Shown one piece after another: positions 2,935 to 43,271 of a stretch of DNA of 64,000 nt. The DNA is from Gluconacetobacter liquefaciens (GTDB lineage: Bacteria > Pseudomonadota > Alphaproteobacteria > Acetobacterales > Acetobacteraceae), in assembly GCF_003350405.1 (NCBI RefSeq), contig NZ_QQAW01000001.1, positions 620,001 through 684,000 of the forward strand, in the 5' to 3' direction. A program made the translations under genes and the position numbers. The notes below the pieces were generated by a model. That model saw nothing but the letters and a program-made list of their open reading frames with translations, ran no database searches and was not told where the DNA came from. Every line of letters begins with the position of its first letter. Position 1 is the stretch's first letter.

Positions 2935-3462
2935 ATGAACGCCAACGCCACGATTCTGACGGAGCTTCTGCTGAAGGAGCGTCCCTCGCTCCTCCGCCTC
3001 ATCCGGCGCATCGTCGGCACCACCTCCGACGCCGAAGACGTCACCCAGACCCTCTGGCTGCGCATCCAGACGGTGACCGATACCCCCCCGATCAACGACA
3101 AGCAGGCCTATCTCTACCGCCTCGCCCGCAACGTCGCCCTGGATCGTCTCAGGGCAGGGGAGAGACGGGAGGCCCTGTTCGCCTCCGGCCCGATTTCCGA
3201 GGAAATCGCAGCCCCGGTCCCGTCGGCCGAGCGGCACCTGATCGACCAGGAAAGCCTCGGCATCGTCCTGGCCGCGATCGCTGGCCTGTCCCCTCGTTGT
3301 CGGGAGGTCTTCATCCTGCGAAAGATCGAAAATCTCCGGGTCGTGGACATCGCCGAACGCCTGGGCATCTCGCCCAGCATGGTCACCCGCCATCTCCAGA
3401 ATGCCCTGACGCACTGCATGGCGCGCCTCGCCGACACCGAAACCGGTGCCGACGCCTCGTGA
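2935..3462 (+). CDS. fecI: FecI-type ECF sigma factor (right Fec unit)
   Basis: Second ECF sigma factor of the iron-starvation class, 175 residues. Region 2 is visible as RLIRRIVGTTSDAEDVTQTL and YLYRLARNVALDRLR; region 4 as LSPRCREVFILRKIENLRVV followed by DIAERLGISPSMVTRHLQNAL. Starts at the ATG at 2935; the upstream purine signal is weak. It is followed after 47 bp by fecR and then by a full TonB-dependent receptor, so this is a complete second signalling unit. Only limited sequence similarity to the left FecI, so the two are not a recent duplication. Confidence 0.92.
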   Translation: MNANATILTELLLKERPSLLRLIRRIVGTTSDAEDVTQTLWLRIQTVTDTPPINDKQAYLYRLARNVALDRLRAGERREALFASGPISEEIAAPVPSAERHLIDQESLGIVLAAIAGLSPRCREVFILRKIENLRVVDIAERLGISPSMVTRHLQNALTHCMARLADTETGADAS

Positions 3463-39049: not shown

Positions 39050-39358
39050 CTATAGGCTGTCGCGTGAGACCTGCGTGCTTTTGAAGAGGGCGACGGCCGC
39101 TGTGGGGAAGACGCGGGCGAATTGCAGGCGGTAGCAGGCATGACGGGTGATGCGGTCGGGCATGACAGGTGGCGCGGACATGCTGCCGTCCGTGGACAAG
39201 TCGGCGTCGTAGAACAGTCGGCGGCCGAGTGGCACGCCGGCTTCCTGCGCCGTGGTCTACGATAAGGTTTTGGTGGAGACTCCGGCCAGGACGGGGAGGT
39301 AGAGCGTGGCCGCGAGGCCGAGGGGGACGAGGCATTTCTGCCAAGCGTCCCGGCGCAT
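39050..39358 (-). pseudogene. Remnant of a di-haem cytochrome c peroxidase/MauG-family gene
   Basis: Starts at ATG 39358, overlapping the stop of the upstream gene (ATGA), with a signal-peptide-like CLVPLGLAATLYLPVLAGVS. An in-frame TAG follows, then GVPLGRRLFYDADLSTDGSM, which matches the region before the first haem site of this family (LGRxLFxDxxLSxDGxxSC). Loss of one base then removes the expected CATCH haem motif from this frame; it reappears in the next frame. The rest of a normal 350-450-residue protein is absent. Clearly a decayed fragment; its former link with the cytochrome/flavoenzyme genes is only suggested by position. Confidence 0.7.
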
Positions 39359-39897
39359 CATGGCACCGGCATCACCATGATTTCGATTTCAGGTTGGCCG
39401 CTGCCGCTGAGTTGGATGACGGAGCGTCCGGCCGGGAGTGGGAAATCGACCATTTTGCCGATCCCGCTACAGGCTGGCCCGTGCTCGTGGTGGGTGGACG
39501 CTATGGCGGTGCCGTCGCGCACGACGTCCAGCCACGCGCGGGCGTTGAGCATGACCCGGTAGGTGCCTGCCTTGGGGGCATCGAAGGCTACCATGCCGCC
39601 CGAACTGACCGTGCCGCCCGGTTCGTCGGGGCGAAGGGCATAGCTGACATCGGGCGTGGGCCGCAGGGCCACCAGTGCTGCCTGCCCCGGTGGGAGAACG
39701 GCGTGATCGAGCGCGGAAACGGTGCCGGCGGCTTCGAAGTGGGTTGGGGAGGTCCATGCGCGTAGATCGTCGGGGAGCGCCGGCTTGCCTGGCGTGCAGT
39801 TGGCCTGGGGCGCGTCCGCTCGGGCGGGGGCGGACGGAGCGAGCCCGATCAGCAGGGTGGCGAGAGCAGGGATGACGAATGGTTTCGCGGTTGCCAT
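39358..39897 (-). CDS. Exported protein of unknown function
   Basis: 179-residue secreted protein: signal peptide ATAKPFVIPALATLLIGLAP ending ARA, then a mature domain with one Cys pair (NCTPG, HGPACSG) and alternating strands (QAALVALRPTPDVSYALRPD; GMVAFDAPKAGTYRVMLNAR; WLDVVRDG) that look like a pre-peptidase C-terminal-type beta-sandwich. Ends IEIMVMPVP. It is translationally coupled to the decayed di-haem peroxidase gene, so it was probably an accessory of that enzyme. Function not known. Confidence 0.75.
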   Translation of the reverse strand: MATAKPFVIPALATLLIGLAPSAPARADAPQANCTPGKPALPDDLRAWTSPTHFEAAGTVSALDHAVLPPGQAALVALRPTPDVSYALRPDEPGGTVSSGGMVAFDAPKAGTYRVMLNARAWLDVVRDGTAIASTHHEHGPACSGIGKMVDFPLPAGRSVIQLSGSGQPEIEIMVMPVP

Positions 39898-40221
39898 GGT
39901 GCCTTTCCGCAGTCCTGTATCACTTCGGATCTGTACGCGAACTCTATACGGGCTGCGCCGAAACCAGAAATGAAAGCCTGTCGGCTGCCCGGTCGCCCGC
40001 CTTGCCGCGCGTCGGCCTGCACGGATTCGGAAGGACTCTGGCGGGGATCAGCCCCGAAAAGGAGTCAAGCATGAATCGTTATGAAGCTGTGAATTGTTTC
40101 GGCGGATGGGTCCATGAGAAAGTGCTCAGGAATCATGGATATTTGGTCATGCCTCTCTTGACTGCCTGAGAAGGGCGAAAAACCAGCATTTTTTCTGTGC
40201 CGGTCCATGGCGGGAGTGGCG

Positions 40222-40267
40222 GGATTATCCACAGAATCCGGGGGTACCCTTCTGGATAACTCTGTGG
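40222..40267 (+). repeat. DnaA-box palindromic element, copy A
   Basis: 46-bp core matching copy B at 44 of 46 positions. It contains a perfect DnaA box TTATCCACA (40225-40233), an inverted near-box TCTGGATAA (40251-40259), and TCTGTGGAT (40261-40269) inverted to ATCCACAGA. The element is an imperfect palindrome centred on GGGTACCC. Confidence 0.75.
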
Positions 40268-40543
40268 ATTGCTTGGCCGGAAACAGGCCGGAGCGCGACG
40301 AATCCCGCCTTTCTTGGTTTGTTCCGGCTGGGCGGGGAGCGCTGCGTGCTCCGGCAGAAGAAAAAGGGGACAGTGCAGTGGTGGCTCCTGACCCGTCTCT
40401 CTGGTTGGCTGTGAATGATTTGCCCGTGAGGGCAGTCATAAAACTGACATGGAATCAAGAGGCTTTCGGGGATCGGATGCAATCTTGCTGGAATTGGCGG
40501 AAAACAGCCATTTCCCAAGTCCGGACCCGTTCCGGGGAGGGCA

Positions 40544-40589
40544 GGATTATCCACAGAATCCGGGGATACCCCTCTGGATAACTCTGTGG
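40544..40589 (+). repeat. DnaA-box palindromic element, copy B
   Basis: Second copy, 322 bp after copy A, differing at two positions (GGGGATACCCC in place of GGGGGTACCCT). Perfect DnaA box TTATCCACA at 40547-40555 and inverted TCTGGATAA at 40573-40581. Confidence 0.75.
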
Positions 40590-40659
40590 GTGGATGCCGC
40601 TGGGGCTTGAATCCGACGGACCTTGCTCTGTTCTTCCCGGTTTGTTCCCGCGCCGGTGC

Positions 40660-40690
40660 AAAAAAAGAGGCCGGACCTGAAGGCCCGGCC
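40660..40690 (-). terminator. Rho-independent terminator of the RmlB-like gene
   Basis: Read on the minus strand, GGCCGGGCC and GGTCCGGCC form a 9-bp stem (one G-T pair) with loop TTCA, followed by TC and seven T. It lies 144 bp downstream of the minus-strand gene ending at 40834. This is the clearest factor-independent terminator in the window. Confidence 0.85.
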
Positions 40691-40833
40691 GAGGGTGTTT
40701 GCACAGCGGGTCGCTCTTATCCGATTGTCGGAAGCGATGATGATGAAATAATCATTACATCGTGATGAATCCGTCTGCGCCGTCTGCGCATGTTGTCCTG
40801 CCAGAGTGGCCCCAGGCCGCTACGGGTGGGCTC

Positions 40834-41889
40834 TCAGGCGGCGGCTTCGGTGGGGTGTGTGCTGCCCTGCCGGGCGTGGAGCGCGGTCCACCAGGCGCGG
40901 TGCCCCAGATACCATTGCACCGTGCGGCGCAGGCCGGTTTCAAAATCATGGCGGGGGCGCCAGCCGAGCGCGGCCTCGGCGTGCGACGGGTCGATTGCGG
41001 AGCGGCGATCATGTGCCGGCCCGTTGGCGACGGATCGGATCAGCCGTGCGTGGGGGCCGGCCGGGTCGGGGCGCAGTTCGTCCATGAGCGTGCAGATGGC
41101 GCGGACGACCTGGAGGGTTGTGCGCGGCTGGCGGGCACCGATGGCGTAGGTCTCGCCCGGTCGGCCACGTTCCACCGCGAGGACCAGGGCTTCGGCGTGG
41201 TCGTCGACGAACAGCCAGTCGCGCAGGGTGCCCCCGTCGCCATAAACGGGCAGGGGGCGACCGGCGATGGCATTGATCGTCATCAGCGGGATCAGCTTTT
41301 CGGGGAAATGCCAGAAGCCGTAATTGTTGGTGCTGCTGGTGACGAAAGTCGGCAGCCCGTATGTGTGCTGCCAGGCCCGCACCAGATGGTCCGAGGCTGC
41401 CTTGGACGCTGAATACGGACTGCGCGGAGCGTAGGGGGTGGCTTGGGTGAAAGGGGGCGCGCCGGGTCGCTGGGGGCCGAAGACCGCGTCGGTCGAGACG
41501 TGATGGAAACGGAACAGCATGCGGTCGGCCATATCGAGGCCGTTCCAATAGTCCCGTGCCGCTTCCAGCAGGGTGAAGGTGCCCAGCACGTTGGTCGCCA
41601 CGCAGGCGCCGGGGGCGTCGGTCGTGGGGTCTGCCTGGCTTTCGGCGGCCAGATGCAGCACCGCTTCCGGTTGATGGGCTGCGAAAACTGCCCGCATCGC
41701 CGCGCCGTCGGTGATGTCCGCCCGTACGTGCCGGTAGCGCGGGTTCGATGCCGCATCGGCCGTCGAGGCCCGCGTGGCGGCAGGGGTCATGGCGTCGATA
41801 TTGACCACCGTGTGGCCGGTCGCCCCGATCACGTGTCGCACCACCGCCGATCCGATGAAGCCGCATCCGCCCGTTATCATGATGCGCAT
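40834..41889 (-). CDS. dTDP-glucose 4,6-dehydratase-like SDR protein (catalytic Glu replaced)
   Basis: 351-residue extended short-chain dehydrogenase closest in layout to RmlB/RfbB: NAD site MRIMITGGCGFIGSAVVRHV, LHLAAESQADPTTDAPGACV, RSPYSASKAASDHLVRAWQH (YxxxK), TNNYGFWHFPEKLIPLM, PLPVYGDGGTLRDWLFVDDH. The dehydratase triad region reads HVSTDAVFG where active RmlB has STDEVYG: the catalytic Glu is Ala (codon GCG). H in AAESH is also Q, and the VDRS segment is ADPT. So the 4,6-dehydration is doubtful and another NDP-sugar reaction, or inactivity, must be considered. Start ATG 41889 behind GGAAAGGCG. No rmlA/C/D genes are adjacent. Confidence 0.82.
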   Translation of the reverse strand: MRIMITGGCGFIGSAVVRHVIGATGHTVVNIDAMTPAATRASTADAASNPRYRHVRADITDGAAMRAVFAAHQPEAVLHLAAESQADPTTDAPGACVATNVLGTFTLLEAARDYWNGLDMADRMLFRFHHVSTDAVFGPQRPGAPPFTQATPYAPRSPYSASKAASDHLVRAWQHTYGLPTFVTSSTNNYGFWHFPEKLIPLMTINAIAGRPLPVYGDGGTLRDWLFVDDHAEALVLAVERGRPGETYAIGARQPRTTLQVVRAICTLMDELRPDPAGPHARLIRSVANGPAHDRRSAIDPSHAEAALGWRPRHDFETGLRRTVQWYLGHRAWWTALHARQGSTHPTEAAA

Positions 41890-42074
41890 GGGTTGACGCC
41901 TTTCCGGTGCTGATCCCCGTAAAGGCCTGTCCGGCAATGCGCGCGGTGGGCGACCTTATGGTCGTTCCCGCTTGTCTGCCCACATGTCCAGAAAGGCCCA
42001 GAGCGGTTTGTGCGGGCGACAGGGTTAAGAAAGGCTTTAAATATCGCCGCCGGCGCCCGTTTCCGGTCTGGCTT

Positions 42075-43271
42075 TCAATCGTCGTGTTCGGTGGGAGGAA
42101 GGCTGTGTGGAAAGGCGGCGGGATTGAAAAAGCCGAGCAGGATGCCGCCTAGCGCCACGACGATGGCCAATGGGGTGAGAATACTGAAGCCGGCGTGGGT
42201 CAGCACCTGTCCGCCTGCCGCGGAACCCAGCAGGATGCCGACGTTGCTGGCGGAATTGATCGCGGCCCCGGCCACGTCGGGACGGGTGGCGCGGGCGCGG
42301 ATCGCCCCGGACATGACGAACGGGATGATGGCCGAATAGCCGACGCACCATAGCCCCACGGCCCCCACCGCCGCCCAGCCGGACAGGATGTGCCCATACA
42401 TCAGCCCCATGCCGATGAGCATGGCCAGGCCGCCGGCCAGCAGGCCGGCGCCGGGGTTGCGGTCGACGAACTGCCCGGCGCCCCACAGGCCGAGGATGCT
42501 GACGGCGCCCGTCAGCAGCAGGGCGAGGCTCAGGGTGCCCGTCGTCAGCCCGTGGTCGAGCAGCAGCGGCGTGACATAGGTGTAGAGCAGGTTGTGCGCG
42601 AAGAAGAACACCGCATCGACCGCCACCACGACCAGGAAGACCCGCATGACCCGGCGGGAGGCCACGCCGGGCAGGCTGCTGCGGACATTGGGGGGAGACG
42701 AGACCGGTGGCAGGAAAAAGGCGATGCAGAGGGTGAGCATGACGGCCAGTGCGGTCATGACGAACATGGCGACCCGCCAGCTTGCCAGATGCCCGATTGC
42801 CGCCGCGCCTGGCACGCCCAGGATGGCACCCAGCGAGGTGCCTCCATAGACGAAGGAAATGGCGCGTCCGGTCATGTTCTGGGGCACCAGGCGCGCCGCA
42901 TAGGCGGAGGTGATCGACATCAGCAGCGCGTGCGCCAGCCCGCCGATCAGCCGGCCGGCACACAGGAGCAGGAAGTTGGGGGCCATCGCCACGACCAGAT
43001 TGGACAGCACATAGCCCGATAGCGAGAGGAGCATCAGCCGCTTGCGGTCGATATGCGCTGTCATGATCGTGAGCGGGACCGCGCCGAGGGCCACCATCAG
43101 GGCAAAGGCGCTGACGGCCAGCCCGGCATGGCCTTCTGGAATGTGGAAGGTCCGCGCCATCTCGATCAGGATGCCAACGGGGGCGACCTCACTGGTCAGT
43201 GCCGTGAAGGTACAGGCAAACAATGCCCAGAGACCGATGACGGCGCTGGTCGGCAGGGTTTTGAAAAGCAT
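42075..43271 (-). CDS. MFS drug/sugar efflux transporter (AraJ/DHA1 type)
   Basis: 398-residue major-facilitator exporter with 12 predicted segments. Marks of the DHA1/AraJ-like group: EVAPVGILIEMARTFHIPEG in helix 1, the GAVPLTIMTAHIDRKRLMLL loop 2-3, RLIGGLAHALLMSITSAYAA in helix 4 and FVYGGTSLGAILGVPGAAAI in helix 5 (motif C-like GxxxGxxxGxPG). Export substrate unknown. It is followed, in gene order on the minus strand, by the RmlB-like gene and preceded by the SMR exporter gene; no regulator is adjacent. Confidence 0.88.
   Translation of the reverse strand: MLFKTLPTSAVIGLWALFACTFTALTSEVAPVGILIEMARTFHIPEGHAGLAVSAFALMVALGAVPLTIMTAHIDRKRLMLLSLSGYVLSNLVVAMAPNFLLLCAGRLIGGLAHALLMSITSAYAARLVPQNMTGRAISFVYGGTSLGAILGVPGAAAIGHLASWRVAMFVMTALAVMLTLCIAFFLPPVSSPPNVRSSLPGVASRRVMRVFLVVVAVDAVFFFAHNLLYTYVTPLLLDHGLTTGTLSLALLLTGAVSILGLWGAGQFVDRNPGAGLLAGGLAMLIGMGLMYGHILSGWAAVGAVGLWCVGYSAIIPFVMSGAIRARATRPDVAGAAINSASNVGILLGSAAGGQVLTHAGFSILTPLAIVVALGGILLGFFNPAAFPHSLPPTEHDD

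Follow-up and report, generated by a model that had tools for sequence, protein, structure and literature searches.

We found that the 936-bp gap between the open reading frames at 39358–39897 and 40834–41937 holds two copies of a compact core, in each of which one perfect DnaA box faces opposed box positions on a 12-bp step. The window, a 64-kb stretch (G000:C1:620001–684000) of a 4.17-Mb Gluconacetobacter genome in 31 contigs, is the frame for all positions given without a contig or locus name. The initial annotation had described this gene-free region as an origin-like or DnaA-binding locus. Its DnaA-binding part is supported by the box geometry, by conservation across seven species and by unchanged box-contact residues in the host DnaA, and these features make a DnaA-binding control locus likely. 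More specifically, and only tentatively, we read the element as a standing, non-coding, lineage-specific and doubled DnaA control locus of the DARS type, and not as an origin. The anatomy, the conservation, the single copy, the distance from the likely oriC and the identity of the DnaA contact residues are seen directly; as to function, a DARS-type exchange of ADP for ATP would be our first choice and titration our second. We do not claim DARS membership for the window cores, because their box II is poorly formed. The features of the region are as follows.

39358–39897, minus strand: flanking gene for a protein without a Pfam match
40009–40609: densest GANTC cluster of the window (10 in 601 bp against an average of 0.93 per 600 bp)
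40086–40325: repeat unit 1 (GCTGTGAAT ... core 1 ... GGTTTGTTCC)
40088–40096, minus strand: weak DnaA-like box CAATTCACA (2 mismatches), lying 137 bp ahead of core 1 and conserved across the seven aligned species
40225–40233, plus strand: box I of core 1, TTATCCACA, with 8 of its 9 columns invariant across 7 species
40239–40247, minus strand: core 1 degenerate box +14 (GTACCCCCG, 4 mismatches to TTWTNCACA), at the DARS box II position, 8 of 9 columns invariant
40251–40259, minus strand: core 1 box +26 (TTATCCAGA), at the DARS box III position, 9 of 9 columns invariant
40263–40271, minus strand: core 1 box +38 (CAATCCACA, 2 mismatches), 8 of 9 columns invariant
40408–40648: repeat unit 2 (GCTGTGAAT ... 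core 2 ... GGTTTGTTCC)
40410–40418, minus strand: DnaA-like box TCATTCACA (1 mismatch), lying 137 bp ahead of core 2 and nearly invariant across the seven aligned species
40547–40555, plus strand: core 2 box I, TTATCCACA, 9 of 9 columns invariant
40561–40569, minus strand: core 2 weak box +14 (GTATCCCCG, 3 mismatches), 9 of 9 columns invariant
40573–40581, minus strand: core 2 box +26 (TTATCCAGA), 9 of 9 columns invariant
40585–40593, minus strand: core 2 weak box +38 (CCACCCACA, 3 mismatches), 7 of 9 columns invariant
40669–40690, minus strand: terminator-like hairpin and T run, towards the rfbB-like gene; present in 6 of 7 aligned species
40834–41937, minus strand: flanking rfbB-like gene (GDP_Man_Dehyd and Epimerase families)

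The anatomy first described for the gap holds up. Perfect boxes TTATCCACA start at 40225 and 40547 on the plus strand, each core has the inverted near-box TTATCCAGA (TCTGGATAA as read on the plus strand) at 40251 and 40573, and the cores agree at 44 of 46 positions over 40222–40267; a frame shifted one base rightward has 3 differences in 46. The weaker matches said to recur at the repeat offset, GCTGTGAAT at 40086 and 40408 (322 bp) and GGTTTGTTCC at 40316 and 40639 (323 bp), are also present and bear out an old tandem duplication of about 240 bp with a period of about 322 bp. Core 1 reads TTATCCACA GAATC CGGGGGTAC CCT TCTGGATAA CTC TGTGGATTG and core 2 TTATCCACA GAATC CGGGGATAC CCC TCTGGATAA CTC TGTGGGTGG, so that, counted from box I at 0 on the plus strand, box positions lie at +14, +26 and +38 on the minus strand. 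Mismatches to TTWTNCACA at 0, +14, +26 and +38 number 0/4/1/2 in core 1 and 0/3/1/3 in core 2; the +14 slot is thus present in both cores as a poor box. The AT-rich patch at 40740 exists but is not part of the element, as it lies past the terminator-like hairpin and outside the duplicated units. The terminator scan is by itself no evidence, since one hairpin was found and shuffles yield 1.5 on average.

What is unusual is the packing of boxes into two cores, not the number of boxes. The window contains five box matches with at most one mismatch, which is the chance level (shuffle mean 5.1), and four of them are in this region. Genome-wide, TTATCCACA occurs 16 times against 13 for its reversed control, so there is no general enrichment. 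A site with a box of at most one mismatch at +26 and at most two at +38 has a chance of about 1e-6, a figure taken from the window's own composition and calculated after the site had been seen. The 507-bp region 40174–40680 has a single genome match, itself; a dispersed repeat family is therefore rejected, and the alternative of an unrelated palindromic repeat family is excluded for this genome.

Given the two-core anatomy, we examined its conservation in the genus. Among 14 genus genomes two cores are present in seven, one core was found in five and two have no match; put otherwise, the region or core is present in 11 of the 13 relatives searched, with no match to either in G002 and G009. By this region the closest relative in the sample is G010, at 92% identity. 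Within the two cores, 43 and 44 of 47 columns are invariant in the 7-way alignment, against 226 of 502 in the remainder of 40060–40655; no other part of the gap is so well conserved across the seven species. Copies 1 and 2 retain their own differences across species, which indicates that each is maintained separately.

The cores also share a GANTC site, which we take to be a CcrM-type site, located in both within the 5-bp spacer that follows box I. Many GANTC places recur across the seven species, with 10 to 13 sites each in the aligned stretch, and in the 13 cores of alignment A2 only the N of GANTC varies in that spacer. As a class-wide spacer rule GANTC fails, since just 9 of 101 distinct sequences from the class-level pattern matches have it; the tendency in those 101 sequences is R-W-W-N-C.

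The host DnaA aligns with E. coli DnaA with 195 identities over 468 columns. Eight residues regarded as box contacts are identical to those of E. coli. R281, R285, R334 and R227 are retained, and the host protein differs from E. coli at L290 (M), V211 (I) and R245 (N).

The likeness to DARS is closest in the first three positions of the cores, whose order, direction and 5/3-bp spacing are those of E. coli DARS1 and DARS2. In the K-12 sequence the DARS1 boxes lie at 0 (+), 14 (−) and 26 (−) with mismatches 1/0/1 (L134 2108+/2122−/2134−), and the DARS2 boxes lie at identical places with mismatches 1/1/1 (L135 2636+/2650−/2662−). According to the accessible part of PMC5742627, the core boxes have identical spacing in DARS1 and DARS2, with box I facing II and III, and DnaA on box I and box II would meet head to head. 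The 3-bp spacing of parallel boxes is kept in the window cores (offsets 14, 26 and 38). Unlike DARS1, which lies before uvrB, they have a degenerate +14 box, a fourth position at +38 and a doubled unit, and the neighbour of the element is neither uvrB nor uvrC. DARS2, between rppH and mutH, has the same core geometry, and differs from the window element, which has no shared IHF-like site; other genes than uvrB or mutH adjoin the element.

Several findings count against a DARS reading. A well-formed box II 5 bp from box I is lacking (GTACCCCCG and GTATCCCCG, with 4 and 3 mismatches) and is found instead in a core at the start of uvrC, described below. The layout of three boxes with box I opposed is itself kept, though only if the +26 and +38 boxes act as II and III; these have 1 and 2 mismatches in core 1 and, more weakly, 1 and 3 in core 2. 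An E. coli-type three-box pattern (5-bp first spacer, at most 3 mismatches) has no match in the five Acetobacteraceae of the class sample, the window's own genome included. The distance between element and parS, where parS was found (10 of 12 genomes), varies widely among genera, and the lack of a match in G002 and G009 also weighs against this reading. At one mismatch or fewer, neither an IHF-like site, with WATCAANNNNTTR as consensus, nor a CtrA-like site is common to the seven species, so DARS2-type control is not seen; the one IHF-like match, in G003 alone, lies outside the cores.

If the DARS-type reading is right, the perfect box I facing opposed positions at +14, +26 and +38 would be the operative feature, an arrangement that in E. 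coli DARS1 and DARS2 would bring DnaA molecules into head-to-head contact, with loss of ADP. Because the +14 box is degenerate, the head-to-head partner of box I would here be the +26 box, a 12-bp step beyond the partner in E. coli. In both cores ADP-DnaA may bind box I and the boxes opposed to it; once assembled, DnaA would release ADP and take up ATP, and the ATP-DnaA pool for oriC would thereby be rebuilt. The clustered GANTC sites could link the timing of such recharging to CcrM methylation after fork passage.

Passive or datA-like titration, in which the doubled boxes would soak up DnaA or drive ATP hydrolysis and so delay re-initiation, is the alternative that survives best, though we consider it unlikely. 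Like datA, the element is a non-coding cluster of DnaA boxes away from oriC, at a distance from the likely oriC (marked by hemE) of 545 kb here, about 645 kb in G004 and about 223 kb in G011, and it offers two perfect boxes, several weaker ones and the weak box before each core. The essential datA boxes, however, all point in one direction and come with an IHF site, in the accessible text of PMC5742627, whereas here box I is opposed to the others and an IHF-like site is not shared. Moreover, boxes are few for mass titration, at 16 perfect ones genome-wide.

A second alternative is that the gap is a DnaA-controlled promoter region for the neighbouring gene at 39358–39897 on the minus strand. 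This gene begins about 330 bp away from core 1. A homologue of it accompanies the two-core form in 6 of 6 aligned relatives, as does a homologue of the MFS gene at 42075 in two-core species. That uvrBp3 overlaps DARS1 in E. coli, as the accessible part of PMC6015884 has it, means that both roles can coincide. Of the seven two-core species, only this one and G010 have the rfbB-like gene between the element and the MFS gene. In G. dulcium a second relative, with 79% identity to the window's protein, lies elsewhere (L034). In the five one-core relatives (G004, G008, G011, G012 and G013), 0 of 8 window proteins, that of the 39358 gene among them, has a homologue near the core, within searched stretches of 8.8–14 kb each, the G013 stretch ending 1.3 kb from the core. 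Since none of the eight genes lies beside the core there, a promoter role for a single gene is unlikely; the element also has two cores and extends over about 560 bp, and we regard this explanation as quite improbable.

That the element is a second or the main chromosomal origin, the other half of the initial proposal, is very improbable, and the element is probably not the chromosomal origin. A likely better candidate for oriC, by gene order and composition, is the hemE–maf gap beside parAB and parS, about 545 kb away. The hemE gene lies at C1:113940–114980 and maf starts about 430 bp beyond it. The gap between them (L117 10996–11426, G000:C1 about 115.0–115.4 kb) contains imperfect DnaA-like boxes, one with a single mismatch, and lacks a perfect TTATCCACA. 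Then come parA, parB, gidA and trmE, with two parS-like sites, one at 123.1 kb (1 mismatch), the other at 125.4 kb (0 mismatches), within about 10 kb of the gap.

Strand polarity was followed on C1 in 19 sampled stretches. GC skew starts at −0.14 (20 kb), moves to +0.03 (60 kb) and about 0 (85–119 kb), and then lies at +0.06 to +0.09 up to 410 kb, at 0 to −0.06 from 450 to 640 kb and at +0.06 to +0.15 beyond. Polar 6-mers, learned on G004 and then applied to C1, give −0.52, +0.16, −0.15 and −0.06 in the first stretches, +0.26 to +0.41 until 410 kb, +0.11 at 450 kb, −0.08 to −0.17 at 510–640 kb and then +0.26 to +0.46. KOPS-like words change over from 0/4 at 119–130 kb to 5/1 at 140 kb, balance out at 450–530 kb (1/1, 2/2) and lean positive from 570 kb (9/2, 6/1, 2/1, 10/0). 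The stretch at 450–640 kb, with GC skew and polar words at or below zero and KOPS-like words balanced or positive, is perhaps an inversion or an imported block.

These profiles bear on the origin alternative in both directions. In its favour are the clustered boxes, the GANTC cluster and the nearby AT-rich patch, and a polarity change about 20 kb before the element that counts against the non-origin reading: near 640 kb polar words flip from negative to positive, and GC skew climbs from −0.06 (620–640 kb) to +0.06 and +0.15. Polarity is positive, however, on both far sides of the element, at 119–410 kb and 640–725 kb, and since the arm is positive on the far side of the dip we take the 640-kb change to close a local dip; nor are KOPS-like words negative at 570–725 kb. 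The element thus has neither hemE and parABS near it nor a polarity switch at its own place, the local change lying about 20 kb off. G004 has hemE at 2.137 Mb and its copy of the element at 2.783 Mb; polar words there stay negative until about 2.16 Mb, are about 0 at 2.25–2.45 Mb, positive at 2.65–2.85 Mb and slightly negative again in a stretch at 3.05 Mb, with GC skew about 0 at 2.65 Mb; polarity does not change at the element, which sits inside the positive stretch. In G012 the element is 1.4–2.5 Mb from hemE, unlike G004 with its identical core. Presumably these two may be assemblies of one strain with a rearrangement, and G012 was left out of the distance comparison for that reason. A plasmid or phage origin was rejected as well, as 40060–40680 has no blastn match in the plasmid and phage collections.

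A structured non-coding RNA of two tandem hairpins scarcely merits belief: the opposed boxes can pair (98.9% of cells for box I with +26, 93.0% with +38), but pairing is a consequence of inverted DnaA boxes, 39800–41000 has no Rfam family at gathering score, no pair is changed on both sides in 13 sequences, and the sole promoter-like site of 39850–40850, at 40725, lies beyond the cores.

The DARS-type reading of the window element gains a counterpart in the same genome, at the start of uvrC.

L202 (G000:C3:408001–414000), 3226–3260; also L197: uvrC-start three-box core

It reads TCATCCACC GATTA TGTGGATAA GTC TGTGGAGCA, with mismatches 2/0/2, and stops 16 bases before the likely uvrC ATG (L202 3277); uvrC would overlap the core if it began at 3253, an earlier in-frame start. 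It has the geometry of the window cores and differs from them in being single, in its well-formed box II and in lying beside uvrC, and it fits the DARS layout. A 31-base form of this core matches its pattern without a mismatch in all 14 genus genomes, although the pattern was composed after the own uvrC and C19 sites had been seen and so describes rather than tests; uvrC adjacency was confirmed in two of them, our own and G004. At up to 2 mismatches the pattern has 2 to 7 matches per genus genome (2 in all when reversed), so further sites of this geometry exist.

Beyond the genus, the 24-bp core pattern is matched with at most 3 mismatches in 42 of 299 genomes of the family. Across 39 distinct elements and offsets from −50 to +89, only +26 and +38 on the minus strand have a mean mismatch below 4.2, in a scan that excludes the pattern's own offsets and box I shifts of one or two bases; 15 of the 39 are Gluconacetobacter copies, so the signal is partly shared descent. 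In the class, the E. coli-type pattern occurs in 107 of 385 genomes (reversed, 2), and with a first spacer of 6 bp in 19 of 385 sampled Alphaproteobacteria (reversed, 3); class-wide specificity is based on these two controls, the reversed pattern and the 6-bp spacer. uvrC lies within 1.5 kb of 17 of the 30 class loci examined and 10 of the 30 family loci, leaving 13 and 20 without it, and some of the examined loci share one genus; uvrC is the commonest neighbour of the geometry, not the sole one. At all 17 class loci near uvrC, match and gene are on opposite strands, which places box I nearest uvrC. This is the reverse of E. coli DARS1, about 420 bp before uvrB, where box I is farthest from the gene.

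A wider reading would be an Alphaproteobacterial DARS-type recharging system, in which a uvrC-start core, kept in many of these bacteria, would couple initiation to excision repair, and Gluconacetobacter would have a second, mobile, doubled core with a GANTC in its spacer. We regard it as somewhat unlikely, our estimate being tempered because the uvrC-start core, at 2/0/2, is not fully formed and is turned opposite to DARS1 before uvrB. If true, a class-wide DARS at uvrC would echo DARS1 before uvrB in E. coli, and the uvrC-adjacent cores hint that initiation of replication and the genes of nucleotide excision repair could be linked. In the accessible texts, PMC4245941 describes the DARS2 core as conserved in gamma-proteobacteria and Fis as specific to that group; PMC5742627 places conservation of the core in beta- or gamma-proteobacteria close to E. 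coli. Our literature search, with most subscription papers outside its scope, found no prior report of a DARS at uvrC or in Alphaproteobacteria. The uvrC core in many Alphaproteobacteria and the doubled variant offer short stretches of DNA on which DnaA footprints and ADP release could be assayed.

Two further sets of sites were observed in the same genome. The geometry recurs in the 3' part of two PF10134 (Replication initiator protein A) genes (L198 1501–1531 and L200 1501–1531; G000:C19:9670 and C2:76706), with like sequences in other Gluconacetobacter, and these sites may mark a plasmid-type origin within the rep gene or else reflect a shared protein motif. Perfect DnaA boxes form a second pair, 247 bp apart and pointing the same way, at G000:C2:510966 and 511213 (L007/L008), near DUF2125 and acyltransferase genes, and a similar pair, 249 bp apart, is present in G004 and G012 (L031, L032).
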